Source: Hymenobacter sp. GOD-10R (GTDB lineage Bacteria; Bacteroidota; Bacteroidia; Cytophagales; Hymenobacteraceae). From it: a DNA stretch of 64,000 bases. Location of the stretch: the NCBI RefSeq assembly GCF_035609205.1, contig NZ_CP141184.1:3624501-3688500 (forward strand). The letters run 5' to 3'. Numbering within the stretch: position 1 is the stretch's first letter; each line of letters opens with the position of its first letter. Of the stretch, positions 1 through 64,000 are shown one piece after another. Under the pieces are notes generated by a model, which saw only the letters and a list, made by a program, of their open reading frames with translations, ran no database searches and was not told the origin of the DNA. The position numbers were made by a program, and so were the translations under genes.

Positions 1-39
1 TTCCTTAGCCACTCAGTTACTCAGCTACTTCGTCCTGTC
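1..39. repeat. possible end of an intergenic inverted repeat
   Basis: The stretch at about 10-24 (actcagttactcag) nearly matches one arm of the inverted repeat at 59003-59060 (actcagtcactcag). It lies just downstream of the susC stop codon. Only one arm is in the window, so the element is a guess. A SusD gene, the usual partner of SusC, would be expected beyond this edge. Confidence 0.3.
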
Positions 40-3000
40 TTAGAAGCCTAGGTTGAGGCCTACAATGAAGGACCGCGTGAAAGGATAGTTCACGCCGTTA
101 CCACCAGACGTGCCACCGCTCGTGTTGTTGGGGTTACCGCCGGTGAAGGCAATACCGCCAGGCTGGCTTGCGTCGAGGCGCGTCGAGTAAGACAAGGCAT
201 CGGGGTCGATGGCTTTGTTAGCCTTGAAGAACGGATCCTTTGCCCAGAGCAGGGGGTTTTGCACTTGCACGTAAACACGTGCATTGCTCATGAAAGCTCG
301 CTTCGCCCAAGCGGTTGGCAGTGCATAACCTAGGTCAATGCTACGCACTTTGATGAAGGTACCGTTCCGGTATGCCAAGGTCTGTCCGTACGTGGGCCAC
401 TCGGTTGCGCGGGAGGACTGGTCAGGCTGCGGGTACTCGTTGCTGGGGTTAGTGGCCGTCCAGTAGTTCAGGTTCACCTGGTTGCGCCGCCCCGTGTTGG
501 TGGTGAAGTAGTTCGGCCCGAACAAGGTCGGATCCACCACCGTCGCCCCGACCCGCGTCAGCGCCACCAGCGTCAGGTCGAAGCCTTTGTACTTGAAGCG
601 GTTGGTCAAACCCGCCTCGAACTTGGGCTGGCGGCTGCCTACAATCACGCGGTCATTGGAGTTGATCACCCCATTGTTGTCCACATCAGCCACCTTGATC
701 TGCCCGGGCTTGGAGTTGTACTTCTTGGCCTGGTCAGCTTCCGAGGTTTGCCAGATGCCGAGCTTCTTGTAGTCATAGAACACGTACAAGGGCTGGCCGA
801 TGAAGCGCTGGTTGCCGATGTCACTGAGCTTGTTGCCGCTGGCATCGTTCAACCCCAGGTCCAGTACCTTCTCCCGGTTCACGGTGAAGTTCCAGTCCGT
901 GCTCCATTCGAAGCCGCTTGTGGTCCGCACGTTCACCGTAGAGAGTGACACCTCGATACCGCGGTTTTGGGTCTGACCCACGTTGCGCACGTAAGAGCTA
1001 TAGCCGCTGGCCGTTGGTAGCGCGTCAGGCAGCAACAGGTCGCTGGTGCGCTGCTGATACACTTCCACCGAACCCGTGATACGGTTTTGCAGGAAGCCGA
1101 AATCCAAGCCAAAGTTGGTCGTCGTTGTGTATTCCCAGCCTAGGTTGCCGTTCGGGATGCTGTTCGGTACTACGCCTACTGCGCCAGTCGCGCCGTAGTT
1201 ATAGTAGCCGTTACCGATGCCCGAGCCTAGCGCTCCGAGAGTCTGGTAAGGGTTCACCGCTGTGCTACCCACGCGGCCCAAGCTAGCCCGGAACTTCAGG
1301 TTGCTAAGCCACGCCTGATCTTGCAGGAACGACTCATTGGCAATGTTCCACGCTACGGCTGCAGAAGGGAAAGCCTTGTACTTATTGCCTGGCGCCAAAC
1401 GCGAAGAGCCGTCAACGCGCACGGTTAAGGTAGCCGAGTAGCGGTTATCATAGGCGTAGTTTGCGCGGCCCATGTAGGAGATAATATCCCAACGCTGCTG
1501 ACTGCTGCTAGCCGAGCTAGGCGTACCAGCACCTAGGTTATTGTATAGCTGGTAGTTAGCCAACAAATTACGAGCTCCAACGCTAGAGTTATCGAAGCGG
1601 TAGCCCTGCCAGCTGTATAGGCCCGTAAAGTTCACATCGTGCTTACCGAAGCTGCGGTTATACGTCAGGATGTTTTCGGTCAGCAGGTTGAAGGCTAAGT
1701 TAGACGAACGCGAAGCCGTGCTCTGTCCTCCGCCGTTTTGCGGGGTGTATGAAGCGTAGAAGGTGCCGTTGTTCTCGGAGCGCACATCCAGACCTAGGTT
1801 CAAGCGGTAGTCTAGGCCTTTCAGAATGTTTACCTGCCCGTATAGGCTGTTGAAGGTACGGATCCGGCGACTCTGGTCTTTGTGCGCGTTATCGGCGTAC
1901 AAGGTGAGCGGGTTCGATCCGGCCGTGTCTCCGTTCGGGTACAGAACCTGATTGCCGTTAGCATCCGTAGTAGAAGCCAGCGGGCTAGTTGTCAAAATCT
2001 GGTTTAGAATGCCGACGTTCGGGTCGTCCGACACGTTGAACGTGTTCAGCGTGTTCACCCCAACTTTCACCCGTTTGCCAATTTGTTGGTCAAGGGTACC
2101 ACGCAGCGAATAGCGCTGGTAACGTTGTACGGGGGTAATGCCCGTTTCGTCGTAGTAGCCTAGCGAGGTCGAGTACTGGGTTTGGTCCGTACCACCCGAC
2201 ACGCCAATAACGTGGTTTTGGATGTGCCCCTTTTGGAAGAGCAGTTTCTGGTAGTCCGTCGTGCGACCAGCGGCGTAGTTAGCTCGTTCGTCGTTCGTGA
2301 GGAACGTAGTAGCCGTGTTGGGGTCGTAGTTCGCGTTCTGCGCCCGGTAAGCTTCGAGGCGGTAGTTGTAGTACTCCTGCCCGTTCTGCAAATCGTAAAG
2401 GCCATACGCCTTTTTCGTGCCGTAGTAGCCGCTGTAGGTAGCGCGGGGAGCACCCGATTTACCGCGCCGAGTGGTAATCAGGATAACGCCGTTGGCACCA
2501 CGAGCACCGTAGATAGCCGTCGAAGAGGCGTCTTTCAGCACTTCCAGCGACGTAATATCGTCCGGGTTCAAGTCGTTGAGGCTACCGTCGAAGGGTACGC
2601 CATCTACTACCAGCAGCGGATCGTTGCTACCCGAGATAGAGCGGTTGCCCCGGATACGAATAACTGGGCTCTGACCAGGCGTAGTGCTGGAGTTGGAAAT
2701 CGTAACACCGGCCGCGCGACCTTGCAGGGCCTGACCAACGTTAGCCACCGGCACATCCCGCAGTTGTTCTTCCGTAACCGACGAAATAGCGCCCGTTACC
2801 TGGCTCTTCTTCTGCACACCGTAGCCCACGACCTGTACTTCATTCAGAGCGGTGGTTTCGGTAGCTAGCTTCACATCGAGCGAAGTGCGGCTGCCCACCG
2901 CAACTTCCTGCTTCAAGAAGCCAATCGAGCTGACAACTAAGATTGTGTTATCGCTGGGCACTGCTAGGCTGAAGTTACCGTTGGCGTCGGTGCCGGTGCC

Positions 3001-3195
3001 TTGGCTCGTGCCTTTCACCACAACCGTTACCCCAGGTAGACCTTCGCCATTCGTGCTCGTAACCCGCCCCGTTACGGTGCGTCCCGTTTGCGCCATCACC
3101 AACGTGGGGGTGAGGCCGAGTAATGATAAAACTACTGCGCCGCGCGCCACTGGTTGCCCGAAGCGGAGCATAGCAGCATATAGAGGTGCTTTCAT
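40..3195 (-). CDS. SusC/RagA-family TonB-linked outer membrane transporter
   Basis: This is an outer membrane beta-barrel that imports oligosaccharides using TonB energy, normally capped by a SusD lipoprotein. A signal peptide covers about residues 1-35 (cleavage near VMAQ). A carboxypeptidase-regulatory-like domain follows at about 38-112, then the TonB plug at about 118-248 with the SusC signature YGARGANGVILITTRRGKSG, and the barrel to the C-terminal Phe. The length of 1051 residues is normal for the family. The gene lies 56 bases after an SDR gene and downstream of aguA and uxuA on the same strand, so the likely substrate is a glucuronic-acid-containing xylan oligomer (inference from context). 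SusD is not in the window. Family call firm, substrate tentative. Confidence 0.95.
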   Translation of the reverse strand: MKAPLYAAMLRFGQPVARGAVVLSLLGLTPTLVMAQTGRTVTGRVTSTNGEGLPGVTVVVKGTSQGTGTDANGNFSLAVPSDNTILVVSSIGFLKQEVAVGSRTSLDVKLATETTALNEVQVVGYGVQKKSQVTGAISSVTEEQLRDVPVANVGQALQGRAAGVTISNSSTTPGQSPVIRIRGNRSISGSNDPLLVVDGVPFDGSLNDLNPDDITSLEVLKDASSTAIYGARGANGVILITTRRGKSGAPRATYSGYYGTKKAYGLYDLQNGQEYYNYRLEAYRAQNANYDPNTATTFLTNDERANYAAGRTTDYQKLLFQKGHIQNHVIGVSGGTDQTQYSTSLGYYDETGITPVQRYQRYSLRGTLDQQIGKRVKVGVNTLNTFNVSDDPNVGILNQILTTSPLASTTDANGNQVLYPNGDTAGSNPLTLYADNAHKDQSRRIRTFNSLYGQVNILKGLDYRLNLGLDVRSENNGTFYASYTPQNGGGQSTASRSSNLAFNLLTENILTYNRSFGKHDVNFTGLYSWQGYRFDNSSVGARNLLANYQLYNNLGAGTPSSASSSQQRWDIISYMGRANYAYDNRYSATLTVRVDGSSRLAPGNKYKAFPSAAVAWNIANESFLQDQAWLSNLKFRASLGRVGSTAVNPYQTLGALGSGIGNGYYNYGATGAVGVVPNSIPNGNLGWEYTTTTNFGLDFGFLQNRITGSVEVYQQRTSDLLLPDALPTASGYSSYVRNVGQTQNRGIEVSLSTVNVRTTSGFEWSTDWNFTVNREKVLDLGLNDASGNKLSDIGNQRFIGQPLYVFYDYKKLGIWQTSEADQAKKYNSKPGQIKVADVDNNGVINSNDRVIVGSRQPKFEAGLTNRFKYKGFDLTLVALTRVGATVVDPTLFGPNYFTTNTGRRNQVNLNYWTATNPSNEYPQPDQSSRATEWPTYGQTLAYRNGTFIKVRSIDLGYALPTAWAKRAFMSNARVYVQVQNPLLWAKDPFFKANKAIDPDALSYSTRLDASQPGGIAFTGGNPNNTSGGTSGGNGVNYPFTRSFIVGLNLGF

Positions 3196-3251
3196 AATAG
3201 GTGGGAAATGTTTTGTGGGAAAAACTCTTGACTGTGGGAAAAATTCTTAAC

Positions 3252-4055
3252 CTAAAAACCAATTGAATTGCCGCCATCAACTGGCAGCGAGGCACCCGTG
3301 ATGTAACGGGCGGCATCGGAGGCAAGGAACACGGCCGCGTGGCCGATGTCTTCGGGTTTGCCGAACTTACCCATAGGCGTGCGGCGCATGGCTCGGTCGC
3401 GGCGTTCGGGGTCGTTGTTCATGGCCGTGCGGCTCATTTCTGTTTCGATGAAGCCGGGGGCAATGGCATTCACTCGCACGTTGGCGCCCGAAAATTCGGA
3501 GGCGAGCACCTTTACCATGCCTTCTACCGCCGACTTGGAAGCAGCGTAGGCTACTACTCGGTCGATGCCGTAGTAGGCGGCCATCGACGAAATCATCAGG
3601 ATGACGCCGCTCTTACGGGCTACCATCTGCTTGGCGCAGGCCCGTGTGAGGGAAAACACCGAGTTTAGGTTAGTGTGAATAATACGATTAAACTCTTCGT
3701 CGGTCACTTCCAGCGCGGGCTTTTTCATGTTGATGCCAGCGTTGTTCACCAGAATATCGAGTGGCCCCCAGGCATCCTCGATCTGCTTCACCAAGCCCTC
3801 GAGTGAACCTAGCTCACCCACATCGTTGATGAGGTATTCGGCCGAAGTACCTAGCCCCTCAACGGCATCTTTCAGCGGCTGTTCGCGCCGCCCCGTGATA
3901 ACCACACGAGCACCCGCCTGTACCATACAACGGGCAATTTCCAGACCGATGCCGCTACCGCCGCCCGTAATCAGAGCGAGTTTACCCTCCAGGGAAAAAG
4001 GGTTTGGTTGCGTCATCGTATCGGTGTGGTTCGTATGATTTTCGAAGTGCTCCAT
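3252..4055 (-). CDS. SDR-family oxidoreductase, probable D-mannonate/fructuronate oxidoreductase
   Basis: This is a classical short-chain dehydrogenase with a Rossmann TGGGSGIG at residues 30-37, NNAG at 104-107 and the catalytic Ser156/157, Tyr170, Lys174. It ends with the usual VDGG segment. The best general match by eye is the gluconate 5-dehydrogenase type. Sitting beside mannonate dehydratase and alpha-glucuronidase, it most plausibly reduces fructuronate to mannonate, the step done by UxuB elsewhere; no UxuB homologue is present. That role is inferred from context. Translation may really begin at Met14 (4016), because MTQPNPFSLEGK is a typical SDR start and residues 1-13 look unconserved. 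It is likely co-transcribed with aguA, 126 bases upstream. Confidence 0.85.
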   Translation of the reverse strand: MEHFENHTNHTDTMTQPNPFSLEGKLALITGGGSGIGLEIARCMVQAGARVVITGRREQPLKDAVEGLGTSAEYLINDVGELGSLEGLVKQIEDAWGPLDILVNNAGINMKKPALEVTDEEFNRIIHTNLNSVFSLTRACAKQMVARKSGVILMISSMAAYYGIDRVVAYAASKSAVEGMVKVLASEFSGANVRVNAIAPGFIETEMSRTAMNNDPERRDRAMRRTPMGKFGKPEDIGHAAVFLASDAARYITGASLPVDGGNSIGF

Positions 4056-4181
4056 GTCGGTATGCTATTCAATTAAAATGGGTGTTCAATTCTCGGGCAG
4101 GCTTTACCTGCAGCCAGCTTTTGGTTCGCCTAGTGCGTTTGCACAAGAGTTATTCTGAAGGAGGTCAGTTGCTAAAGCGGC

Positions 4182-6332
4182 TTACCGCATCTGGTAGATA
4201 TCCACGATCTGCTTCACGGCTTCCAGCGAGCGTTCGGGTGGGGCAAAGGGAGCCGGAATCGGCTGCTTGGCGAACGTTTGGAAGTAGAGCACGCAGGCAT
4301 CGCGCCACCAGATGGCTTCTTTGTGTTGCGCTTGGAGGCGAGCAGCCACATCGGCGTACAGGGCCGGGTCAACGGCCGGTTTCACTTGGGTCCATTGCTG
4401 CTGCATCCACACCACCGAGTCGGCGCCGGTGTAGTAGCGGTAGCAGAGCTCGTTCCAGAGCGTGCGGCCGGTGCTGAGCGGCTGCTTCCACGGCACGTGG
4501 TGGAACCACAGCAAGTAATTGAGCGGACAGGTTTTGGCGTCACCCCACATTTGCTGCACTTCAGGCTTATACAAGCTAAGTGCATTGCTGCCCTTGGCCG
4601 TGCGGTCGAAACCTAGGCCGATAGAGTCGGCTTTGTGATAATACACCGCGGTCCAGTCGGGGCGGGCACTTTTAGAGAGCCACGGCTCGGGGCCATAATG
4701 CACCGTTTGCCCCATGATGTGGTGTAGGCCGAGCGGCATGGTGTAGCGCACATAGATGTCGCGCGATTTTACCAGCAGATTCGTGATCGTACTCACTGCC
4801 TTCGGCTCGCTTGTCAGCGTCATTCGGGTCCATTCCTTGGCAAGTGCTTCCGACGACAGCGTGTGGTCCCAAGCTAGGCGGCCGTAGGCGTACCAGTTGG
4901 CTTGCCCCATCGGGTGCCCAGTCCAGTTGCGGTCGGAGCCGATGTTAGCCACACCTGCAATACCGCTGATCTGGTGATTGTCAACGCTGCCATCGACCAC
5001 CTTGGCTACCGTCGAGCCTTTGCCTTTGGAATATGTATCTGTTTCTAAGCACTCTTTAATAAGTGGGCCTAGGTACACCATGTGCGTAGCAAAACCTAGG
5101 TACTCCTGCGTGAGCTGCACTTCCAGCACGAGCGGCGTGCTTGGCATTGCACCAAACAGCGGGTGAAATGGCTCCCGCGCCATAAAGTCAATGGGACCGT
5201 TCTTAACCTGTACTAGTGCTTTGGCCGCAAACTTCCCATCTAGTGGCTTAAACTCCTCATAGGCTTCCTTGAACCGGTCGCCGTTGGAGTTGGCTTTGTA
5301 CACAAAGGCCCGCCACATAACGATGCCATCGTGCTGACCTAGGGCTTCGGTGAGCATGTTGGCTCCCTCCGCGTGGTTGCGGCCGTAATCTTGCGGGCCG
5401 GGCTCCCCTTCCGAATTTGCTTTCACCAGAAAGCCTCCGAAGTCGGGAATGGTCTTGTAGATTTCGTTTGTTTTGTCGGTCCACCAGCTGCGCACTTTCG
5501 GATCGAGCGGATCGGAAGTAGGCAGGCCACCCAGCGTTTTGGGCGCTGCCCAAAATACCGATAAGTACACCCGAATACCGTAGGCCCGGAACACCTTAGC
5601 TAGCGCTGCCACTTTGCGCAAATACTCTGGTGTGAGATACCGAGCACTGGCATTCACGTTATTGATTACCACACCGTTAATCCCGATTGAGGCATTTGCG
5701 CGGGCATAGTCCTGGTAGCGCGGATCAAGTAACTCCGGTAGTTCGTACCACTTCCAGATAGAAGATCCGGCGTAACCGCGCTCTACGGTACCATTGGGGT
5801 TGTCCCAATGATTCAGCATGCGATACTCGATTTTGGGGGTACTCGTGAGAGCTAGGTTAGCGAGCGACTGCCGGGTTTGGAGTTGGCGCAACAGGGCAAA
5901 CGTGCCATAGAGCACCGCCGCATCCGTTGGGCCGGCAACTACTACATTTCCCTTCTCCGAGCGAAGGCTATACCCCTCTTTGCTTAGCTTCTTGAGCCGA
6001 TCGTTTGCGGTAACGTTTGCAGCTGAATTAACGCGCAAAATGATTCCGCCTTGCTTTTTGGCGGGTCCTGTCAGCACCGAAACTGGCTGCCCTAACAGGC
6101 CTTTCAGGCCAAGTTGCAGTTCTTTTACTGCTGATTGTAGCACAGGCGACGAAGCACCTTCAATGGCGATAAACTGCGTCGCCTGCTGATAGGCTTTGCG
6201 CTGAGCAGCATCTTGAATCAAATCATACTTCAGCCACAATCGGTAGCCGTCGTCGGCCACACTACGGTGCGCTCCAACGACAAGCAACAGAAATAATAGC
6301 GAACGAAGCACGGTAGTAGAACGTGAGAGCAC
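4182..6332 (-). CDS. aguA: alpha-glucuronidase, GH67
   Basis: The enzyme removes 4-O-methyl-glucuronic acid from xylo-oligosaccharides after endoxylanase cleavage. Residues 1-26 form a signal peptide (SLLFLLLVVGAHRSVA), so it acts in the periplasm or is exported. The N-terminal beta-sandwich domain is followed by the catalytic barrel with the hallmark KANSEGEPGPQDYGR. By comparison with characterised GH67 enzymes, Glu308 is the probable acid and Asp382 and Glu410 (LTQEYLG) the base pair; their spacing fits the family. The length of 716 residues is normal. It starts six bases after the uxuA stop, so the two are surely co-transcribed. The glucuronate released would need UxaC isomerase, which is not seen here. 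Confidence 0.95.
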   Translation of the reverse strand: MLSRSTTVLRSLLFLLLVVGAHRSVADDGYRLWLKYDLIQDAAQRKAYQQATQFIAIEGASSPVLQSAVKELQLGLKGLLGQPVSVLTGPAKKQGGIILRVNSAANVTANDRLKKLSKEGYSLRSEKGNVVVAGPTDAAVLYGTFALLRQLQTRQSLANLALTSTPKIEYRMLNHWDNPNGTVERGYAGSSIWKWYELPELLDPRYQDYARANASIGINGVVINNVNASARYLTPEYLRKVAALAKVFRAYGIRVYLSVFWAAPKTLGGLPTSDPLDPKVRSWWTDKTNEIYKTIPDFGGFLVKANSEGEPGPQDYGRNHAEGANMLTEALGQHDGIVMWRAFVYKANSNGDRFKEAYEEFKPLDGKFAAKALVQVKNGPIDFMAREPFHPLFGAMPSTPLVLEVQLTQEYLGFATHMVYLGPLIKECLETDTYSKGKGSTVAKVVDGSVDNHQISGIAGVANIGSDRNWTGHPMGQANWYAYGRLAWDHTLSSEALAKEWTRMTLTSEPKAVSTITNLLVKSRDIYVRYTMPLGLHHIMGQTVHYGPEPWLSKSARPDWTAVYYHKADSIGLGFDRTAKGSNALSLYKPEVQQMWGDAKTCPLNYLLWFHHVPWKQPLSTGRTLWNELCYRYYTGADSVVWMQQQWTQVKPAVDPALYADVAARLQAQHKEAIWWRDACVLYFQTFAKQPIPAPFAPPERSLEAVKQIVDIYQMR

Positions 6333-6338
6333 TGAGAA

Positions 6339-7577
6339 CTAGTAGTTGGTAGCAGTCATAAACTCAGCGGGAGCTACATCGGCAGCTAAGGAGCGGCGAA
6401 TACCTAGCTCCAAACCGCGCAACTCAGCCAAGCCCCGTAAACGACCGATGGCAGAATAGCCGGGGTACGTTTTCTTGTGTAGGTCGTCGAGCATCTGGTG
6501 ACCGTGGTCAGGACGCATCGGGATAGACAGGTTGCCACTGCCTTCCTGCTGACGGCGTAGTTCCTCTAACACCAGCTCACGCACTACGGCATACATATCC
6601 ACGTCGCCTGCTAAGTGGTCGGCTTCGTGGAAGTTGCGTGGGTTTTCCTCCCGCTTTGTAGCGCGCAGATGGATAAAGTGAATGCGCTGGCCTAGGCGCC
6701 GTACGATGCCGGGCAGATCGTTATCGAAGCGAACACCTAGTGAGCCAGTGCAGTATGTGATGCCATTGGCAGGAGCATCATAAGCAGCCATTAATTCCGC
6801 CAGATCGGCCTCGGTGCTCACCACGCGGGGCAAGCCTAGCAGCGGATACGGCGGATCATCCGGGTGAATGCAGAGGTTGATGCCTACTTCGGTAGCTACT
6901 GGTCCTACCTCTCTAATAAAGTGAAATAGGTTTTGCTTCAGGGTTTGACTGTCAATAGCCGCGTATTGATCAAGCAATCCTTGGAAGCCAGCTAGTTCAA
7001 ATGCTTCTTCGGAGCCAGGTAGACCTAGCAGTACCGTGTTGGTCAACTCAGCTATTTGGTCAGCACTCATATCGCTGAACTGTTGCTGGGCCGCAGCTTT
7101 TACCGCTGGCTCGTAATCAGCTTCTGCACCGGGGCGCTTCAGGATATACAGATCGAACAAAGCGAAATCTTGCCATACGAAGCGCAATGCCCTTGAACCG
7201 TCGGGCATCTCGTAATTTATGTTGGTCCGCGACCAATCCAGCACGGGCATAAAGTTGTAGCATACCGTCTGGATGCCACAAAGAGCAAGGTTGCGCAGTG
7301 ACTGCTTATAGTTCTGTATGTACTCCGCGCGCGAGGGCAGCCCTTTTTTAATGTCTTCGTGCACGGGCAAACTCTCAACTACGGCCCAATGCAAAGGAGT
7401 ATACTGCTGGTTGTCTACCTCAATTAAGCTCTGGCGGAATTTGATATCCTCTACTGACCATACAGCCCCTACAGGCAGTTGGTGTAGCGCCGTTACGACC
7501 CCAGTGCAACCTGCTTGACGAATGGCAGAGAGTGACACTGGATCATTCGGTCCAAACCAACGCATTGTGTGCAACAT
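6339..7577 (-). CDS. uxuA: mannonate dehydratase
   Basis: This enzyme dehydrates D-mannonate to 2-keto-3-deoxygluconate in hexuronate breakdown and acts in the cytoplasm. The 412-residue protein begins MLHTMRWFGP, typical of UxuA, and carries the family segments CYNFMPVLDW (about residue 106), INLCIHPDDPP (mid-protein, metal and substrate region), FIHLRATKRE and IPMRPDHGHQM near the C-terminus. It is the first gene of the minus-strand operon uxuA-aguA-SDR-susC. Its upstream gap contains a LacI-type operator palindrome, so induction by release of the divergent LacI-family regulator is likely. No oddities seen. Confidence 0.97.
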   Translation of the reverse strand: MLHTMRWFGPNDPVSLSAIRQAGCTGVVTALHQLPVGAVWSVEDIKFRQSLIEVDNQQYTPLHWAVVESLPVHEDIKKGLPSRAEYIQNYKQSLRNLALCGIQTVCYNFMPVLDWSRTNINYEMPDGSRALRFVWQDFALFDLYILKRPGAEADYEPAVKAAAQQQFSDMSADQIAELTNTVLLGLPGSEEAFELAGFQGLLDQYAAIDSQTLKQNLFHFIREVGPVATEVGINLCIHPDDPPYPLLGLPRVVSTEADLAELMAAYDAPANGITYCTGSLGVRFDNDLPGIVRRLGQRIHFIHLRATKREENPRNFHEADHLAGDVDMYAVVRELVLEELRRQQEGSGNLSIPMRPDHGHQMLDDLHKKTYPGYSAIGRLRGLAELRGLELGIRRSLAADVAPAEFMTATNY

Positions 7578-7720
7578 ACTCTGTTGTTTTATTAAAAAAA
7601 TACAATTACAACTATACCTATCCCTTAACTAGTGCTTTGCTGAGAGAGAGGCGTCGTAAAGGATCAGGAGTGATTTTCTTTTCGAAGATAAGTCAGTATT
7701 TAGCTCAAAAACCAGTACTA

Positions 7721-7736
7721 AAACGTTTCCGAAAGC
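7721..7736. promoter_or_regulatory. possible second, weaker LacI-type operator
   Basis: The sequence aaacgtttccgaaagc resembles half of the strong operator 34 bases away, with an imperfect second half. Paired operators permit looping in LacI-type systems; whether that happens here is unknown. Confidence 0.4.
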
Positions 7737-7754
7737 CCAAATATAAAACAAAAA

Positions 7755-7786
7755 TATCACAACCGTTTCCGGAAACGGTTGTGATA
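7755..7786. promoter_or_regulatory. LacI-family operator, perfect 32-bp palindrome
   Basis: The core aaccgtttccggaaacggtt is symmetrical about 7770/7771, and symmetry continues outward to 7755 and 7786 without mismatch. The core fits the LacI/GalR-type operator pattern with a central CG. It lies about 180 bases upstream of uxuA and 120 bases upstream of the LacI-family gene, so it probably controls both. Confidence 0.85.
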
Positions 7787-7906
7787 GGTAAAGTAAAGAA
7801 TAATTTCTTAAAAAAAATTTAGAAGATTATCTTCGAATAATCAAAAGAAGCTTTCCGCAAGGTTTGTGTGTAACTTCGTCTTCCTTATTGATAATACAAT
7901 TCCTAT

Positions 7907-9085
7907 ATGATCAAGTGCACAAAGTGCGGACTTGCCGACGGCGTCATGCGTGCTGGCTTCATTCGGGGGCGACAACGCTTCTTTTGCAAGGCATGCGATT
8001 ACCACTTCACCGACGTCAAAACGGCACCGGCGCCGGAGCGCAAACGTCACCAGACAACGATCGGTGATGTTGCGAAAGCATTAGGAGTAGCTTCTTCTAC
8101 GGTATCACGGGCGCTGAATGGGCACACGGATATTAGCCCTACTACCCGACAGGCCATTTTGGAAGTAGCACGGCAGCTCGACTATCAGCCTAGCTTGCTA
8201 GCCCAAAGCCTAAAGCGCAGCGAAACGCATACGATAGGTGTTATCATCCCCGATATTGAGCGGCCTTTCTTCGCGACGGCGGTAAGTGGTATTCAGCAAG
8301 TAGCGGCTGAGGAAGGCTACCGAGTCATGATCTGCCAGTCGAAGGAGTCGTATCAAACGGAGGTTAGCAACGTGCAAGCGCTTATTGCCAGCCGTGTGGA
8401 TGGGCTTTTAATCTGCCATTCCCGCGAGACCGAAAACTTCGACCACGTGAAGCAGGACGCCTGCCGTGGCATTCCCATCGTCCACTTCGACCGGGTATGT
8501 GACGAGGTGAACAGCGCCAAGGTTATCCTAGACGACTGGGACGGAGCCTTCGCCGTGACGGAGCATTTGATTCAGGAAGGCTGCCGCCGTATTGCGATCC
8601 TCGCGGGACCTGAGTCGCTGTTAATCAGCAAGAACCGCAAAGCTGGCTACCTTAGCGCTTTGCGCAAGCACGGCTTACAGGTGGAAAGCGACTACCAAAT
8701 TCATATCAACTTCCGCGCTGAGTCGGCTGTGGCTGCTCTAGATACTTGGCTAGCTTTGCCAAAGCCACCCGATGCTATTTTCGCCATCAACTACACCAAT
8801 GCCATCGACCTGATTCAATCGTTGAAGCAACGTGGCTTGCACGTGCCAGAAGACATTGCCGTGGTTGGCTTCGGGGATGAATTCATGGCTTCTATGATCG
8901 AGCCGGGCTTAACTACGGTTAATCTTCACCCTTACCGGATTGGGCAGCAAGCTGCTCGTCTTTTCTTGGAGCAAGTGCGGCAAAAAGATGATTTTCAGCC
9001 GCGTACGTTTGTCATCTCTGGTGATCTAGTTATTCGTAAGTCATCACTCAAGGGCCGTGGTTCAGAGTTTACCCTGACCATCTAA
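7907..9085 (+). CDS. LacI-family transcription regulator with N-terminal zinc ribbon
   Basis: Residues 50-100 hold a textbook LacI helix-turn-helix with hinge (TIGDVAKALGVASSTVSRAL). The rest is the periplasmic-binding-protein-like sensor domain (IGVIIPDIERPFFA, VDGLLICHSR, FAINYTNAIDL, VGFGDEF). Unusually, about 48 residues precede the helix-turn-helix and contain a four-cysteine zinc ribbon: C4-x2-C7-x19-C27-x2-C30 with RGRQRFFCKACDYHFT, very like the ribbon at the start of IS1-type transposase proteins. Ordinary LacI proteins begin directly with the DNA-binding domain. The start ATG at 7907 begins the ribbon, and the frame is continuous. The gene is divergent from uxuA across a strong operator and probably represses hexuronate use in the absence of ligand. 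Confidence 0.93.
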   Translation: MIKCTKCGLADGVMRAGFIRGRQRFFCKACDYHFTDVKTAPAPERKRHQTTIGDVAKALGVASSTVSRALNGHTDISPTTRQAILEVARQLDYQPSLLAQSLKRSETHTIGVIIPDIERPFFATAVSGIQQVAAEEGYRVMICQSKESYQTEVSNVQALIASRVDGLLICHSRETENFDHVKQDACRGIPIVHFDRVCDEVNSAKVILDDWDGAFAVTEHLIQEGCRRIAILAGPESLLISKNRKAGYLSALRKHGLQVESDYQIHINFRAESAVAALDTWLALPKPPDAIFAINYTNAIDLIQSLKQRGLHVPEDIAVVGFGDEFMASMIEPGLTTVNLHPYRIGQQAARLFLEQVRQKDDFQPRTFVISGDLVIRKSSLKGRGSEFTLTI

Positions 9086-55023: not shown

Positions 55024-55063
55024 CTAGCTTTTATGCTTGGTCACTTATTGTCTTTGGTAGCCA

Positions 55064-55117: not shown

Positions 55118-55203
55118 CTAAACTGGTAAATTGCTTACCTATACAGCTCAGCTGTGCCGCCCTCCTGCTACCTGTTTGCACATTTCTGTCTCCCAACATC
55201 AAT

Positions 55204-55647
55204 GTGTCTTTTCAAGCGTTTTTAATGCCTGATTTACGTTACCCCATCCACGAGTCCCTCTTTTTTCACAACAATCTAGCAAGCATCATCGCGCATAACT
55301 TTGGGTATGTGCGTATTGAGTGGCACCCGACGATGGTGCGCACCTCGGAGCTGCGTGAGGCCTACGAGCATGTGCTGCTGCTGCTAAAGGAGTCTGGCAT
55401 CACCAAGGTTTTGTCTGACCACCAGCTACTTGCGGCCATTATGCCCGACGATCAGTATTGGCTTGCCAACGACTGGGTACCACGCGCCGTGCAGGAAGTT
55501 GGCTATGCGCGTTGCGCCATCATTCAAGCATATGACGTCATCAGCCACCTAGCTACGTTGAAAATCACGAACTCGTTGATTACCACGTTGGCGGTGAACT
55601 ACTTCGACGACCAAAGACAAGCGGAAGGCTGGTTACTCCAAGCTTGA
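55204..55647 (+). CDS. STAS/SpoIIAA-like domain protein (copy 2)
   Basis: A 147-residue paralogue of the protein at 39753-40181, sharing RIEWHPTMVRTSELREAYEH, LLLLKESGITKVLSDHQ, NDWVPRAVQEVGYARCAIIQ and the C-terminal RQAEGWLLQA. The start is taken as GTG at 55204. An in-frame ATG at 55225 (MPDLRYP) is equally possible. Both copies appear to be cytosolic and lack an obvious active site. The role is unknown. Confidence 0.72.
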   Translation: MSFQAFLMPDLRYPIHESLFFHNNLASIIAHNFGYVRIEWHPTMVRTSELREAYEHVLLLLKESGITKVLSDHQLLAAIMPDDQYWLANDWVPRAVQEVGYARCAIIQAYDVISHLATLKITNSLITTLAVNYFDDQRQAEGWLLQA

Positions 55648-55682
55648 TCAAGGGCAACGCCAGCAGCGGAATCTAGGTCAGC

Positions 55683-57296
55683 TCAAAACAAGCGGTGACG
55701 CAAGAGCCAGCCAGCCGCATCAAACTCTTCTGCGCGGGGCTTATACGCTTCTACTTTTACTTTTTTTGCGGTGACCTGGATCGTGTTACCATCACCGCTG
55801 TCGTACACCGTTATGTTTGCCAAGCTAGCTTTCGGGGGCACCGTATGCTGCTGTATAGTATCCTGCCCAGCTCCGTCGTAAATACCCACGGCGATGCCGG
55901 CGTCGGGCAAGCTTTGTAGGTCGAACACATCGGCGCCACCGAGGCCAAAGATCTTGATGGAGCGCGTCTCTCGTGCATCGAACGTGCGTTGGTTGAGCAG
56001 GCTATCGGGCTGATCGACTCGCTTGGCATAAATCTGCACCCGTAATTGCGACCTACCCTGAGAAGTTATGACGAAACGCTCTGCCTGCTCGGTGCCGGGC
56101 AGCTCAATATCGCGGGCGAGCAGTTCGTAGAACTTGGCAGCTACGGCAGGCAGCTGTTCGCGCCGCTGGCGTAGCTTGGAGTCGAACTCTGACCCGACCA
56201 AATGATAGACTTGCTGGGGCCATACGAGCAGCGACTGCCGAATAACATCGTCGGAAAGCTGCCGCCGCATAGAATCAGCCACTTGCTGGAAGTCGCTGGC
56301 CGAAAGGTAAGCGAGCAGCGACTTATCCATGGGCAGCGCAGCGCGGTTCAGCCCCTCCACATTCTGTAGCTTGATCTTGCCGTGAAAACTCTGGTAATTA
56401 GTTTTAAACCAGCTGATAATGCGCGTCAGCACGCCATCGTCAAACTTAAAAAAGGCATGGTCCCGGTCGCGGGGAATGGCCCGGTATACGATACCGCCAG
56501 GCGTGGGAAAGCTAGCCCACCGCCATTGATCCTCGCGCCGACTCCAGTCGCCGAGCCACATATCAAACAAACGCGCCCGCAGGTATTGGCGCGCATCAAC
56601 GCGGTAGCGCTGGCTGTAGACTAGGTTGGTAAAGGCTTTGCGCGAACTTTCCACCCGCGCCGAGCGGCCGAAGTTGGGGCTGTCACGCTGGTTACCATCA
56701 GGGCGCTCCTCCAGCAGGTATAATGCATTCGCGAAGCTCTTGCGGAAGCTGCCTAGGGCCGGGTCATCGGGCAGCCACACCAAGCGCGGATTTGTGTAAT
56801 ACACGCCAGCGGCTTTGGCCAACGGCGGCACAATGTAAGCTCCGTAGGGATTGATAACGCTGGTCTGATCTTTCATCAGGTTGGCGATAAGGCCTTGCTG
56901 AAACTGAGCGGGCAGCGCCTTGGTGGCATCTTTATCGACGGAGCGCAGCACGTACTCTAGGTCGTCGCGCGTCACCAACCGAAGGTTTCTCGTTTGAAAG
57001 CTCCCCCCCTCGCGCACTGGAGTGAAACCACCCGGTACGGCCGTGCGCAGGTTGAACACGCGCGCTTGAACCGGCACGGCCCATACCTTGCGGTAATGTT
57101 TACCCCAAAAAAACCGGTGGATGGCCCCGCGCATGTACTGCGGGCCGGCCGCTACTTGTACTGTGGAGTCAGCCGCAATAGTCGGTGGAGGGCCAGTAGG
57201 CTTCGCGGGCGCGGAGCAGGAAACGCACAGCAACCCGCACGATAACACCTTCACGCGAGAGCTACGCCAGCAATAAGAAATAAGAGTTAATGTCAT
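55683..57296 (-). CDS. kinase-like lipoprotein, degenerate copy
   Basis: A 537-residue probable lipoprotein (lipobox LLCVSC, Cys27) of a family I recognise only as the N-terminal half of some Bacteroidota envelope proteins. It shares a long alignment with the divergent neighbour at 57431-58999: VDKDATKALP, TSVINPYGAYIVPPLAKAAG, LLEERPDG, LGDWSRREDQWRWA and PRDRDHAFFKFDDG, then a C-terminal GLGGADVFDL domain. Where the neighbour has DWDRH, this protein has DWSRR (Ser252, Arg254), so a putative catalytic loop is altered. A GTG at 57254 is an alternative start. The function is unknown. Confidence 0.82.
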   Translation of the reverse strand: MTLTLISYCWRSSRVKVLSCGLLCVSCSAPAKPTGPPPTIAADSTVQVAAGPQYMRGAIHRFFWGKHYRKVWAVPVQARVFNLRTAVPGGFTPVREGGSFQTRNLRLVTRDDLEYVLRSVDKDATKALPAQFQQGLIANLMKDQTSVINPYGAYIVPPLAKAAGVYYTNPRLVWLPDDPALGSFRKSFANALYLLEERPDGNQRDSPNFGRSARVESSRKAFTNLVYSQRYRVDARQYLRARLFDMWLGDWSRREDQWRWASFPTPGGIVYRAIPRDRDHAFFKFDDGVLTRIISWFKTNYQSFHGKIKLQNVEGLNRAALPMDKSLLAYLSASDFQQVADSMRRQLSDDVIRQSLLVWPQQVYHLVGSEFDSKLRQRREQLPAVAAKFYELLARDIELPGTEQAERFVITSQGRSQLRVQIYAKRVDQPDSLLNQRTFDARETRSIKIFGLGGADVFDLQSLPDAGIAVGIYDGAGQDTIQQHTVPPKASLANITVYDSGDGNTIQVTAKKVKVEAYKPRAEEFDAAGWLLRHRLF

Positions 57297-57430
57297 AACT
57301 ACGCGACCTAGAGGTCGGGCGCCACACGGGCGGCCACCTTATAGCGCAAACCAGGGCGGGGCGGTTGTGCTTGTTATCTTTTATTGATGGGTTTCGTTGA
57401 AGCACCTAGGTTGTGCTTTCTCTCCTTTAG

Positions 57431-58999
57431 ATGGTTGTTCGCTTACTTCTCCTTGTATGTTGGCTGATGGTTGCTAGTTGCGCCCGGCAGCGTTTTTTTC
57501 AAACAGATGCTCGGCTGCCAAGTGCTCCCCCACTTGCTGCCACGGCCGATAGTGCCCGCGTGACGGCCGGTCGGCATTACCGCGCGAATGCACTTTACAA
57601 TGTCTTCTTTGGCCGTCATTACCGCCACGTCTGGACGACACCTGTTACCGTACCCGTACTGAAGCCTCAAACGGTGGTGCCGGGCGGCTTGCAGGCGGGC
57701 AAGCTAGGAGGAGGATTCCAGAGTACCAGCATGACCTTGCTCGGCGCCAACGGCCGTGAATACGCCCTACGGACGCTTGATAAAGATCCGTACAAAACGT
57801 TGCCTCGGCTGCTGCAAAAAACCTTCGTGCTCAACTTAGTGCGCGACGCCACTTCGGCCATCAACCCCTACGGCGCGTTTGTGGTGCCGCCGCTGGCCGA
57901 GGCTGCCGGGGTGCTACATACCACGCCTCAGCTCTTTTACATCCGAGCCGATGAAAAAGGCTTGGGGGAGAACGCACCGAAGTTTCAGGGAAAGCTAGCC
58001 TTGCTCGAAGAGAAGTTTGATGGTAAGAGCAACCTCACGCCTGCCTTTGGCGAAGCACAAAACCTGGAAGACAGCGACGATGTGCTGCGCGCGCGCTACC
58101 AAGATCCCAGCTGTCAGTTCGATCAATTGGCATTTGCGCGGGCCCGCCTGCTCGACCTCTGGCTCGGCGATTGGGACCGACACGAAGGTCAGTGGCAATG
58201 GGCCGTATACGAGCAACAGAACCGCACCTTGTATCGACCCATCCCCAAAGACCGAGACCAGGTTTTTTACCGCTTCGACGATGGACTGGTGCCGTGGCTC
58301 GTGAGTCGCCCGTTCGTGGTAGGAAAGCTGCGCACCTTTAAGCCGCACTACGAAACCATCGCGGGCTTAGTAAAAAATGCCCGCTTCATCGACGAGCGGG
58401 CTCTTAATGAGGTAACCAGCGCACAGTTTCAAAAGCTAGCCCTCGATCTGCAAAGCCGGCTCACTGACGAAGCCATTGAGACGGCGCTCCACCGCCTGCC
58501 ACCGCCTGTTTACGCACTAGAGGGCGCACGCACAGCCGCTGCCTTGCGAGCACGCCGGGTCTCGCTGCCAACAGCAGCGCGCACTTATTATAAATTGCTA
58601 GCGCGTGAGGTGACAGTGGTAGGCACCGATCAAGCCGAGCGGTTTGTGGTGCAGCGTCTCACCGACTCCACGACCCAAGTGCAGGTGTATGCGGCCAAAG
58701 GCCAACCCATGTACGAGCGTATTTTCCGTAGCGCTGAAACAAAGCTCATCACCTTGCACGGCCTAGGTGGCGAAGACACGTTTGAACTAAGCGGCGACGT
58801 GATGCATGGCATCCGCGTTAACATTTTCGGAGGACCAAACCGCGACGAAGTCAAGGACACATCACGGGTGCGCCACAGCCGCCGGAAAACTTACTACTAC
58901 GACACGCGTAGCGGCAACACCTTAGAGGCTGGCCCTAGCACCCGCGACCGAACCCGAAAAGGTGTCGAAACTCACGCCTACGACCGCGAAGGGGACTAA
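57431..58999 (+). CDS. kinase-like lipoprotein, intact motif copy
   Basis: A 522-residue lipoprotein (lipobox MVASC, Cys17). The central region has LWLGDWDRHEGQWQWAVYEQ (Asp249-Arg250-His251) followed by PIPKDRDQVFYRFDDG (about 271-285). These resemble the D-R-H catalytic loop and the downstream metal-binding Asp of atypical kinases of the PI3K/Fam20 type; this is a by-eye comparison, not an established assignment. An earlier YALRTLDKDPYK (111-122) could supply a nucleotide-binding Lys. The C-terminal domain has GLGGEDTFELSG. It is divergent from its paralogue with a 134-base gap, so they are probably co-regulated. It acts outside the cytoplasm. Confidence 0.82.
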   Translation: MVVRLLLLVCWLMVASCARQRFFQTDARLPSAPPLAATADSARVTAGRHYRANALYNVFFGRHYRHVWTTPVTVPVLKPQTVVPGGLQAGKLGGGFQSTSMTLLGANGREYALRTLDKDPYKTLPRLLQKTFVLNLVRDATSAINPYGAFVVPPLAEAAGVLHTTPQLFYIRADEKGLGENAPKFQGKLALLEEKFDGKSNLTPAFGEAQNLEDSDDVLRARYQDPSCQFDQLAFARARLLDLWLGDWDRHEGQWQWAVYEQQNRTLYRPIPKDRDQVFYRFDDGLVPWLVSRPFVVGKLRTFKPHYETIAGLVKNARFIDERALNEVTSAQFQKLALDLQSRLTDEAIETALHRLPPPVYALEGARTAAALRARRVSLPTAARTYYKLLAREVTVVGTDQAERFVVQRLTDSTTQVQVYAAKGQPMYERIFRSAETKLITLHGLGGEDTFELSGDVMHGIRVNIFGGPNRDEVKDTSRVRHSRRKTYYYDTRSGNTLEAGPSTRDRTRKGVETHAYDREGD

Positions 59000-59002
59000 A
59001 GA

Positions 59003-59060
59003 GTGACTGAGTGACTGTTCTAGTACCTTGCCCGGCTGTTTAACTCAGTCACTCAGTCAC
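59003..59060. repeat. intergenic inverted repeat before the topoisomerase IB gene
   Basis: Arms gtgactgagtgactg (59003-59017) and cagtcactcagtcac (59046-59060) are exact 15-base inverted repeats, each itself made of near-direct gtgact/gagtgact units. It separates two convergent genes. A similar arm is seen at the left window edge. Confidence 0.8.
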
Positions 59061-59061
59061 G

Positions 59062-60174
59062 CTACACTGTCTCCAGCATATCTAGCACCATGTGCTCGGT
59101 AGGCGTTAGCAGGTCGTTTTCTTTGGGGTCGATGTCGTGTTTACGGAGGTAGTCGATGAGCTTATCTGAGTTGAACAGCTCCACTACCTGGGGGTGAATG
59201 TAGTACTTGCTACAAACGGTAGGCGTGTTGCCGAGGCCGGTTGCTACTTCTTTCACGGCGCGCTTCAGCACTTTCGCTTTGGGCAGGTCCGGCTCTTCGT
59301 TAATCACGTTCTCCAGGCATGCTACCATCTTCACGGTGCCGCCCCAAGTGCGGAAGTCCTTCGCCGAGAGGCTCATGCCGGTTACGTCATGCAAGTATTG
59401 GTTCACGTCGCCCGATTCTAGCTCGGCACGGTGGCCATCAGCATCGTAGTATTGGAACAAATGCTGCCCCGGGATTTCCTTACACTTCTGTACCAAGCGC
59501 GCGAGCTTTCGGTCGTGCAGGGTAACATCGTGGGGCACACCCTTTTTGCCGATAAAGGAAAAGCGCACCATATCCCCTTCCACCTTCACGTGCCGGTCGC
59601 GCAAGGTGGTCAGGCCGTAGCTCTTGTTTTTCTTGGCGTACTCGCGGTTGCCCACCCGAATAAACGACTGGTCCATCAGATTCAGCACCAAGGCTATAAC
59701 CTTCTCCTTATCTAGTTGCGGGCGCTTTAGGTCCTTCTGAATTTGCTGCCGCAATTCGGGCAGCTTCTCCCCAAACGCTCGCAAGCGGCTGAACTTGGTA
59801 AGGCTTCGGGCCGCATCCCAGGCAGCATGGTAGAGGTACTGTTTGCGCCCTTTGGCGTCGCGTCCGGTCACTTGCAAGTGCGAGTTGGCGGATGGCGAAA
59901 TCCAAACGTCGGTCCATGCGGGCGGAATAACAAAGTGCTGAATACGGTCCATTACCTTCTCATCCGTAACAGACTGTCCTTTAGCATCTAGGTACGTGAA
60001 AGTACCATCTGGGCCGGGCTGCCGGGTAAGGCCTGGCTTGGTGTCGGTAAGGTACCGTAGGCCAGCTAGCTCCGCTTGACGGGCAGGGTCCTTGTAAAGC
60101 TCGTGCGCTTCTGCAAGCGGGTCGAGCAGCTTCTTCTTCGTTTTTGGGCGCGGATGTGTAGCAGCGACAGACAT
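59062..60174 (-). CDS. DNA topoisomerase IB
   Basis: A poxvirus-type bacterial topoisomerase IB of 370 residues that relaxes supercoils through a 3'-phosphotyrosine. Catalytic residues are visible: Arg and Lys in IRVGNREYAKKNKSYGLTTL, Arg in KDFRTWGGT, and the nucleophile Tyr325 in CSKYYIHP. The N-terminal beta domain holds GLRYLTDTKPGLTR and FVIPPAWTDVWISP. Such enzymes occur in a minority of bacteria, including many Hymenobacter. It faces the kinase-like gene across an inverted repeat. Confidence 0.95.
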   Translation of the reverse strand: MSVAATHPRPKTKKKLLDPLAEAHELYKDPARQAELAGLRYLTDTKPGLTRQPGPDGTFTYLDAKGQSVTDEKVMDRIQHFVIPPAWTDVWISPSANSHLQVTGRDAKGRKQYLYHAAWDAARSLTKFSRLRAFGEKLPELRQQIQKDLKRPQLDKEKVIALVLNLMDQSFIRVGNREYAKKNKSYGLTTLRDRHVKVEGDMVRFSFIGKKGVPHDVTLHDRKLARLVQKCKEIPGQHLFQYYDADGHRAELESGDVNQYLHDVTGMSLSAKDFRTWGGTVKMVACLENVINEEPDLPKAKVLKRAVKEVATGLGNTPTVCSKYYIHPQVVELFNSDKLIDYLRKHDIDPKENDLLTPTEHMVLDMLETV

Positions 60175-63377: not shown

Positions 63378-63404
63378 ACCTAGGTCTTCTCGAAACTTCT
63401 TTAT

Positions 63405-63434
63405 GCGGCCCGCTAGGTATTCTTGGCGGGCCGC
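63405..63434. repeat. short GC-rich hairpin after the App1-type gene
   Basis: Arms gcggcccgc (63405-63413) and gcgggccgc (63426-63434) are perfect 9-base inverted repeats. No T-tract follows, so termination is uncertain. Confidence 0.5.
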
Positions 63435-63583
63435 GTGGCTTGTGAGTCTTGGTATTACTAAAGTACCCTCAGTATAATCCTACGATGGTCACTTCTTGGC
63501 GCCACAATTCGCGTAACTGCTTGTATTCTAGTGAATAGTTATTATCTATAGCGTACCAATCCATCTAAAACTAGTATCCTTCT

Positions 63584-64000
63584 ATGCAAAGCTTTATTGC
63601 CTCTATTCGACCGTGGTGCCTAGCGTCTTTACTGCTCACCGCGAGCCTCTCCTCCGTGCATGCGCAAGGCCAGCTTTCCGCGGGCGCCACGAAAGTAACT
63701 TCCGTAGAAGGCATCACCGAATATCAGCTCAGCAACGGGTTGCGGGTGCTGTTGTTCCCGGATGCGTCGAAGCCGACAATGACCGTAAACATCACGTATC
63801 TGGTAGGTTCGCGGCACGAGGGCTACGGGGAAACCGGCATGGCTCACCTGCTCGAACACATGGTGTTTAAGGGGTCGACCAACCACAAGAACATCACCCA
63901 GGAGCTGACCGAGCACGGCGCCCGCCCCAACGGCACCACTTGGTACGACCGCACTAACTACTTTGAAACCTTCGCGGCAACCGACGAAAACCTCAACTGG
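63584..64000 (+). CDS. M16-family zinc protease, 5' part only
   Basis: Only 139 codons are present; the gene runs off the window end. A signal peptide ([15 protein letters not shown], cleavage near residue 28) is followed by the start of an M16 peptidase domain: [20 protein letters not shown], then [14 protein letters not shown] with the inverted zinc motif HxxEH. Such exported M16 proteins are common in this phylum and usually have about 900 residues with two M16 domains, or work as a pair. Confidence 0.9.

Follow-up and report, generated by a model that had tools for sequence, protein, structure and literature searches.

A highly iterated CTAG-centred palindrome and its dialects in Hymenobacter

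What keeps CTAG abundant throughout a stretch of the chromosome of Hymenobacter sp. GOD-10R, and is this tetranucleotide itself the conserved unit? The analysed window (the whole stretch of 64,000 bases) contains 312 copies of CTAG, i.e. 1.27 times the expectation from base composition and 1.19 times that of a second-order Markov model, the latter expectation being itself inflated by the word. The initial annotation placed CTAG almost always between G or C residues (SCTAGS). This holds for the segment that it cited (positions 33841..35880), where word counts confirmed 13 CTAG, all 13 within SCTAGS; over the whole window the proportion is lower (220 of 312; 71%). The anticipated two to three flanked sites per approximately 2,040 bases agree with the null used for word counts (100 dinucleotide-preserving shuffles of the window), whose mean, scaled to 2,040 bases, is 2.6. 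For the complete window the shuffle mean is 82.9 (sd 7.5), and none of the 100 shuffles reached 220.

The conserved word proved to be longer than SCTAGS. ASCTAGST, an eight-letter palindrome around CTAG, occurs 75 times in the window against 4.42 expected, a number matched in 0 of 100 shuffles. These copies comprise 13 ACCTAGGT, 15 AGCTAGCT and 47 mixed words (ACCTAGCT/AGCTAGGT), and together with the 220 SCTAGS they form a field extending over positions 1..64000, both in and between genes; no strand is assigned to this field or to the sites below. Word searches located ACCTAGGT at positions 328..335, 1531..1538, 1792..1799, 5094..5101, 9774..9781, 18204..18211, 20958..20965, 24861..24868, 29776..29783, 47003..47010, 48815..48822, 57404..57411 and 63378..63385. 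The copies of AGCTAGCT, distributed over 2863..60071, have their first bases at 2863, 16654, 18318, 21237, 24254, 35522, 44648, 47162, 49126, 50217, 50242, 50647, 55022, 55823 and 60064. Four full ASCTAGST words fall within 33841..35880 (at 34641, 34821, 35522 and 35618). As the initial annotation had described, the abundance extends through coding and intergenic DNA: 62 of the 75 copies are located inside 40 of the 42 ORFs of at least 200 aa, called by a mechanical rule (1.16 per kb), and the other 13 elsewhere in the window (1.24 per kb). An Rfam search of the window gave no match; the same search of seven other stretches detected one tRNA.

The enrichment is genome-wide. In the complete genome (7,508,807 bases) GCTAGC occurs 6,725 times and its reversed control CGATCG 395 times, RSCTAGSY 13,286 times against 977 for the reversed control, and ACCTAGGT 1,867 times against 32; the last comparison gives 3,262 against 16 in H. 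cavernae. Nor is it limited to a few genes, since the sampled chromosome C1 (the window in 8-kb bins and 8 other stretches of 20 kb) carries 0.5-1.75 ASCTAGST per kb, apart from one AT-rich stretch in which the word is absent (0). On the sampled parts of the small replicons C2, C3, C4, C6 and C7 its density is 0-0.30 per kb, and that of C5 is 1.25 per kb; the word is thus scarce on five of the six small replicons. These five and the AT-rich stretch are probably recent arrivals or foreign DNA.

How strictly the word is kept can be judged from fourfold-degenerate leucine codons. In the window, CTA is used in 53 of 59 such codons in the context ASCTNGST, in 103 of 177 in other SCTNGS contexts and in 154 of 1,111 other leucine CTN codons. 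Corresponding values are 44 of 45 in H. cavernae (ACCTNGGT), 47 of 52 in H. polaris (CCCTNGGG) and 30 of 34 in genome G084 (GGCTNGCC); G105 is far from saturation (16 of 57), and in four CTAG-poor genomes CTA accounts for 12 of 256, 13 of 253, 12 of 277 and 6 of 187 SCTNGS leucine codons. In full-word contexts C and T, like G, are depleted at the third position. In intergenic DNA, with each palindromic site taken once, the ratio of perfect words to words with one mismatch at the innermost half-position is 39:3 in H. cavernae, 16:0 in H. polaris, 8:0 in the window genome and 9:8 in G084; by chance, six one-off words would accompany each perfect site (approximately 234 for the 39 of H. cavernae). 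Perfect copies therefore far exceed one-off copies at the inner positions. Furthermore, 108 of 201 window SCTAGS sites (54%) are retained in H. cavernae, whereas retention is 21-42% in the seven other S-palindrome-S classes compared, and 1 of 21 WCTAGW sites is kept.

The chromosome thus carries a highly iterated palindrome, ASCTAGST in the window species, in genes and between them. The proposal that it is positively maintained, and not a product of protein constraint, is supported: synonymous and intergenic positions inside the word mostly hold the motif base, sites are kept above control palindromes, and the word is genome-wide. Active maintenance is, in our judgement, nearly certain. In codon-use studies of carrier genomes, many CTA leucine codons should accordingly be regarded as dictated by the word, not by translation.

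Comparison with related genomes, which had been recommended, revealed that most sampled relatives are CTAG-poor, only 8 of 80 parE-neighbourhood loci reaching at least 0.6 of the composition expectation for CTAG. In scattered species, dialects of this type of word occur (ACCTAGGT, GGCTAGCC and CCCTAGGG), as do words that lack CTAG. ACCTAGGT is most numerous in G013, and the word of G125 (Solirubrum) is CCTAGG. The 10 word states require 15 changes on an 80-row tree of ParE+ParC; motif scores were used for loci over 12 kb, and the labels of two loci below the motif thresholds, L056 (GGCTAGCC) and L009 (CCTACCC), were assigned by hand. A non-palindromic word, CTACCCC(C), is found in other species; counts of its part CCTACCC differ between the strands in some loci (3:16, 24:7), the bias being weak in others (14:13, 14:8). 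This bias is too weak for a KOPS-like polar FtsK reading of CTACCCC, which was rejected. Relaxed avoidance of CTAG was also rejected, as it could not yield values far above expectation.

The spacing of the word departs modestly from chance in several genomes. The proportion of gaps shorter than 250 bp was 0.20 for ASCTAGST in H. cavernae vs 0.28 in control word sets (0 of 1,000 as low), 0.19 vs 0.30 for CCTAGG in H. polaris (0 of 1,000), 0.17 vs 0.23 in G000 (p 0.006) and 0.23 vs 0.33 for GCTAGC in G084 (p 0.002), these p-values being uncorrected. The deficit was absent for ACCTAGGT alone in H. cavernae and for GGCTAGCC in G084. The spread of gaps (CV) differed from controls for ASCTAGST in H. 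cavernae and in H. polaris, and did not differ in G000 (0.99 vs 1.00), in G084 or for ACCTAGGT alone in H. cavernae; in the window alone, CV was 1.11. Word density is lower in ORFs than in intergenic DNA in H. cavernae (1.08 vs 2.91 per kb) and in the G000 sample (0.94 vs 1.42 per kb), and among 38 window genes it showed no relation to protein conservation (Spearman -0.02).

Of the causes initially offered, a highly iterated palindrome matches the data as a class, methylation and Vsr-type repair being disfavoured. One mutational route would be the conversion of CCAG/CTGG to CTAG by deamination of 5-methylcytosine or by Vsr-type repair, with the palindrome as a by-product. CCAG/CTGG is indeed the commonest state in CTAG-poor relatives at window SCTAGS sites (51% of 2,088 comparisons), and CTA was gained largely from CTG, but in full-word contexts each of the three non-motif bases is depleted, which largely contradicts this explanation, as it predicts transitions only. 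Neither enzyme tracks the trait: the C5 methyltransferase family (PF00145) is missing from eight of nine word-rich genomes, and Vsr, present in 25 of 120 genomes, occurs in only 3 of the 15 with more than 400 RSCTAGSY per Mb. Deamination of methylated CCAG and Vsr as a driver were both dropped, and we consider mutation bias highly improbable. Restriction relics, i.e. protection of the word combined with cleavage (star activity) and purging of near-misses, are more improbable still. CCTAGG, GCTAGC and CTAG coincide with type II restriction sites. Yet inner one-off words are roughly as frequent as in three CTAG-poor genomes (ACCTGGGT, 25 per Mb in H. cavernae vs 31) and outer near-misses are enriched, which indicates that the word is favoured and not that near-misses are purged; star-activity restriction was rejected on these counts.

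A HIP1-type origin, which relies on an orphan methyltransferase to mark the word and on methyl-dependent mismatch repair to build and keep it, follows the model of Elhai (2015). Iterated palindromes with alternates are the nearest formal analogue, and every HIP genome has at least one methyltransferase predicted to recognise part of its word, according to that paper (PMC4390886). The matching methylase that the initial annotation suggested seeking is mostly missing: in domain searches PF00145 was found in one of nine word-rich genomes (G013, the richest in ACCTAGGT), PF01555 in three of nine and the Dam-type PF02086 in 0 of 10 genomes. PF00145 or PF01555 is present in each of G013, G071, G105 and G027; five of the nine (G000, G019, G028, G084 and G087) have neither, which also argues against restriction relics. 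PF07669 and PF02384 each occur in 9 of 10 genomes, but the matches that were named (four methyltransferase proteins and one specificity subunit) are all type I or type IIG. In the window genome they correspond to a type IIG enzyme (C2) and a type I HsdM (C6), encoded on replicons whose sampled parts are motif-poor; in G084 they belong to a type I system. Moreover, G125 has the CCTAGG word and none of PF07669, PF02384 and PF02086. We therefore regard this origin as improbable. A stronger, though still rather unlikely, candidate is a structural or recombinational chromosome site, read by a nucleoid or segregation protein or, as a Chi-like site, by an AddAB/RecBCD-type enzyme, with a small fitness gain per copy that diminishes at short range. 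It would account for the same saturation, the short-gap deficit and the contrast between chromosome and small replicons; the occurrence of non-palindromic CTACCCC(C), with strand bias of CCTACCC in some loci, is in its favour, but the bias is weak in others. A single binding function would hardly give equal small effects at thousands of sites, and known Chi sites are non-palindromic and far less saturated. PDDEXK_1 (the AddB-type nuclease domain), present in 26 of 26 genomes tested, does not discriminate.

A drive of the DNA-uptake-signal type fits best, because of the dialects, the density, the scarcity on presumed foreign DNA and a modest tendency to even spacing in some genomes; we tentatively prefer it as the cause of the word, at somewhat less than even probability. 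A genome-wide directional pressure would favour a word read on double-stranded DNA as two largely independent half-sites, the putative reader being a DNA-binding protein with a specificity that drifts from one species to the next. The likeliest source of such pressure may be transmission bias: fragments bearing the word would enter cells and recombine more frequently than others, with near-miss alleles giving way to perfect ones. Expected consequences would be a density near one copy per kb, few copies on replicons acquired recently, dialects, and disappearance of the word from lineages that no longer use it. Published uptake sequences come in dialects (PMC3630211). Their frequency is reduced in newly acquired DNA and in coding DNA under constraint, and their spacing, about 1 kb, is relatively even; molecular drive has been invoked as the explanation (PMC7811141). 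ComEC (PF03772) was found in 26 of 26 genomes tested, including all 16 CTAG-poor ones, and thus, like PDDEXK_1, was rejected as a discriminating gene; a literature search, whose hits concerned LexA or did not include Hymenobacter, found no uptake receptor or competence phenotype in this genus. Known uptake sequences are non-palindromic, which counts against this reading, as do the similar word density in ORFs and the rest of the window, its lack of relation to protein conservation there, the modest size of the spacing effect and the low saturation in G105. A broader proposal, which we hold with slightly more reserve, is methylation-independent self-recognition in Hymenobacteraceae, in which a fast-evolving double-strand reader would impose a species-specific, mostly palindromic dialect through biased uptake and recombination.

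If this is true, Bacteroidota would have their first known system of the uptake-signal type, as far as our literature search shows, and one whose dialects change between close species; it would provide (i) a self-DNA signal for the phylum, (ii) a practical handle for transforming Hymenobacter strains and (iii) a test bed for HIP words arising without methyltransferases. Iterated palindromes are still said to be little understood in function, and the Elhai model makes DNA methylation their cause (PMC4390886). In Hymenobacter, strong iterated palindromes are found outside the cyanobacterial phylum, and a single genus shows several dialects as well as losses; its sister species constitute natural contrasts for finding the putative reader gene. 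Beside the window genome, carriers include H. crusticola, H. cavernae and Solirubrum, and the sister species H. busanensis, H. edaphi, H. jeollabukensis, CRA2 and 15J16-1T3B are without the word. Since at least five carrier genomes have none of the three most expected methyltransferase families, iterated palindromes appear separable from DNA methylation.

Chi and further recombination or segregation words present in excess are, like the Hymenobacter word, short, species-specific and chromosome-wide; the latter differs in being palindromic, which makes strand polarity impossible, and more saturated. With the DUS/USS of Neisseriaceae and Pasteurellaceae it shares a density of about one copy per kb, dialects among relatives, scarcity on presumed acquired DNA and a short-gap deficit, but it is an 8-bp palindrome, and its role in uptake is hypothetical. 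The ratio of one-off to perfect words in H. cavernae is 159:87 (1.8), or 88:87 when words with mixed half-sites are left out of the one-off class, as compared with 1.15 and 1.45 in two Neisseria examples (PMC3630211). HIP1 itself (GCGATCGC iterated) is not the word concerned, judging by its core CGATCG, found only 395 times in 7.5 Mb. The likeness is to HIP1 and the alternate HIPs of cyanobacteria as a class: octamer palindromes far above expectation, in and between genes, in hundreds to thousands of copies, with alternates in relatives and the weakest conservation at the outer positions (PMC4390886). The Hymenobacter word is distinguished by its CTAG core in several dialects that switch between close species, by its host phylum, Bacteroidota, and by at least five carrier genomes free of PF00145, PF01555 and PF02086.

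The window contains 312 CTAG tetranucleotides, 220 of which lie in the core SCTAGS (S = G or C); dinucleotide-preserving shuffles yield 82.9 SCTAGS, and none of 100 reached 220. The 13 CTAG sites that the initial annotation had counted at positions 33841-35880 are all SCTAGS, as it claimed. ASCTAGST is the stronger word (75 copies versus 4.4 expected; 0 of 100 shuffles). In partial answer to the whole-genome hexamer check proposed in that annotation, GCTAGC is present 6,725 times versus 395 for its reversed control; the density of RSCTAGSY is 1,769 per Mb. Protein families encoded in the window (including SusC/RagA, type II topoisomerase subunits and threonine-tRNA ligase) and a parE scan place it in Hymenobacter, nearest to H. 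crusticola (L001; ParE 96%). The best protein match of positions 10788-13094 is a xanthine dehydrogenase molybdopterin-binding subunit (TIGR02965; 796.8 bits, below the cut-off of 849.5).

In several genomes the word is close to saturation at its inner, but not its outer, positions. Within open reading frames (ORFs) called by a mechanical rule, leucine codons CTN located inside the rest of the word have A as N in 53 of 59 cases in the window and 148 of 165 in the sample of its genome. The corresponding counts are 101/117 (ASCTNGST) and 44/45 (ACCTNGGT) in H. cavernae and, within each genome's own word, 47/52 in H. polaris, 30/34 in genome G084 and 127/148 in H. setariae (nCCTNGG); genome G105 is far lower (16/57). 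In four CTAG-poor genomes, CTA accounts for 3-5% of the SCTNGS leucine codons. The depletion in saturated genomes affects all three alternative bases, not G alone. Between ORFs, where chance would give six one-off sites (single-base departures) per perfect site, the perfect:one-off ratios at the innermost half-position are 39:3 (H. cavernae), 16:0 (H. polaris), 8:0 (window genome) and 9:8 (G084), and at the outermost position 39:9, 16:13, 8:8 and 9:9, respectively. At the second position of ACCTAGGT, the word with mixed half-sites dominates between ORFs (39:23 in H. cavernae, 8:27 in the window genome). The counts of mixed half-sites are near the independent expectation (71 versus 100 and 134 versus 92, respectively), which fits separate reading of the two half-sites. 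Inner one-off words occur at about the level of three pooled CTAG-poor genomes. Assuming a balance between mutation and a uniform pressure, the scaled strength at inner positions would be approx. 2 to 4.4, of similar order to the octamer excess over trinucleotide expectation (49-fold in H. cavernae, 36-fold in H. polaris and 14-fold in the window genome).

When palindromic octamers present at least four times were ranked by their site:near-miss ratio, the word came first in the window (8.4), the window genome (10.8), H. cavernae (23.5) and the small replicon C5 of the window genome (22.2); on the other small replicons ACCTAGGT reached only 1.5. The top octamers elsewhere were CCCTAGGG in H. 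polaris (18.2), GGCTAGCC in G084 (6.1) and, in H. setariae, CCCTAGGG (6.8) followed by ACCTAGGT (3.6). G105 (2.5) is unexceptional by this measure, since the best octamers of three CTAG-poor genomes reach 2.7-3.9.

The sites are also conserved. In a 60.3-kb alignment with H. cavernae, 108 of 201 SCTAGS and 39 of 68 ASCTAGST sites of the window are kept, compared with 21-42% for seven other S-palindrome-S classes and 1 of 21 for WCTAGW; in a 22-kb alignment, H. crusticola keeps SCTAGS in 38 of 57 cases (seven control classes, 0-47%). In uncorrected tests, one word form in each of four genomes had fewer gaps shorter than 250 bp than random word sets did, and the spread of gaps fell below controls only in H. 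cavernae (ASCTAGST) and H. polaris. No short-gap deficit relative to random word sets was found for ACCTAGGT alone in H. cavernae or for GGCTAGCC in G084, and the gap spread of the window genome was not narrower than in controls (0.99 versus 1.00). Word density is 0.5-1.75/kb on the sampled chromosome of the window genome, 0.00-0.30/kb on sampled parts of the small replicons C2, C3, C4, C6 and C7, and 1.25/kb over the initial 20 kb of C5; the nine C5 proteins inspected include one transposase, several sugar-degradation or transport proteins and no plasmid gene product. An AT-rich chromosomal stretch (C1, 6000001-6020000; GC 0.436), possibly an acquired island, has no ASCTAGST. Between ORFs the word reaches a higher density than inside them in H. 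cavernae (2.91 versus 1.08/kb) and in the window genome sample (1.42 versus 0.94/kb); in the window the two densities are alike and unrelated to protein conservation (38 genes).

A comparatively high CTAG content is sporadic among relatives. Of 80 parE-neighbourhood loci (72 from Hymenobacter or Solirubrum and 8 from other genera), eight (L001, L004, L008, L012, L013, L055, L056 and L078) have CTAG at ≥0.6 of the composition expectation. Among 120 genomes of the genus, counted for three words whose reach excludes other dialects, GCTAGC ranges from 38 to 1,484 per Mb and RSCTAGSY exceeds 400/Mb in 15; it does so in 3 of 84 family genomes of other genera, all three from one genus. Across 18 genome handles counted, ACCTAGGT is most numerous in H. 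cavernae (3,262 copies), the window genome (1,867) and H. crusticola (1,815), intermediate in H. setariae (492), G087 (450) and Solirubrum (242), and present in just 9-60 copies in BT559, G027, G084, G101, G105, G118, H. polaris and H. wooponensis. Per-species samples were of 20 to about 400 kb, and H. cavernae, H. crusticola, H. setariae and BT559 are equated with G013, G019, G071 and G028 from identical counts (for G013, also places).

Other species iterate words of their own. GGCTAGCC occurs 69 times per 100 kb in G084 and 59 times per 140 kb in G105 (trinucleotide expectation, 7 and 11), and BT559 shows a similar tendency (7 versus 1.8 in 37 kb); CCCTAGGG is the word of H. polaris (77 versus 2.2 in 122 kb). 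CTAG-free words are GGGGCCCC, in H. nivis (L063; 25 versus 1.9 in 22 kb) and G048 (L185-L187; 39 versus 4.1 in 60 kb), and TAGGCCW, in H. fodinae and H. wooponensis. TAGGCCA/TAGGCCTA words are iterated in L008 and L012, more densely between ORFs (GGCCTA, 5.9/kb versus 1.5/kb in ORFs). The non-palindromic CTACCCC(C)/CCCTACCC, of variable strand bias, is iterated in several Hymenobacter (G027, L165-L168; G058, L191-L192; L040, L062, L066, L075 and L077), which are not all mutual closest relatives. CTACCCCC has 40 copies in UV11 and H. ginkgonis, each one-off at the first four positions having 0-2. Outside the genus, CTATAG with A-rich flanks in Pontibacter burrus (L080; 37 versus 3.9 expected in 22 kb) is a further iterated palindrome. 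In the H. roseosalivarius clade (L015, L017 and L024), an A-rich stretch recurs ahead of GCCCCCC, often with AG after it (64 GCCCCCC in the three loci); the element is possibly a small repeat or a terminator. Mapped on an 80-row ParE+ParC tree, ten word states (two labels set by hand) require 15 changes, a number reached in 0 of 200 shuffles (mean 19.7). The window genome, H. crusticola, H. cavernae, Solirubrum and five word-less species form one supported set of nine; H. polaris, H. setariae and BT559 fall in a different set.

In cyanobacteria, HIPs are accompanied by methyltransferases whose predicted recognition sequence covers part of the word (PMC4390886). Here, of nine genomes rich in the word, PF00145 is present in one (H. 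cavernae) and PF01555 in three (G105, H. setariae and G027); PF02086 is absent from all ten genomes tested. PF07669 and PF02384 each occur in 9 of 10, the matches identified by name being a type IIG enzyme (C2) and an HsdM (C6) in the window genome, a type I system with a specificity subunit in G084 and a type IIG enzyme in H. cavernae. Of the 120 genomes of the genus, 25 carry a Vsr gene, among them 3 of the 15 with RSCTAGSY above 400/Mb; in H. cavernae (C19; L089 and L103) the Vsr gene has a C5-cytosine methyltransferase gene approx. 2 kb away, and the two probably constitute a single modification unit. On these findings, deamination or methylation is an unlikely cause of the word.

That leaves either selection for a protein-recognized word or its biased transmission. 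That the word is selected as a chromosomal site seems to us somewhat doubtful; an uptake-type drive is favoured tentatively, as a cause whose likelihood we place a little short of even. All 26 genomes tested have both ComEC and an AddB-type nuclease domain, neither of which therefore discriminates between these readings. Searches of openly accessible papers, which take in few subscription journals, turned up no description of such words in Hymenobacter; this falls short of proving the words new. The preference for an uptake-type drive stems from the likeness to known uptake sequences, whose published traits (PMC3630211 and PMC7811141) include dialects, about 1 copy/kb, scarcity on newly acquired DNA and relatively even spacing; the Hymenobacter word likewise has dialects, occurs at about 1 copy/kb and is scarce on presumed foreign DNA, and in some genomes its spacing may also be more even than chance.
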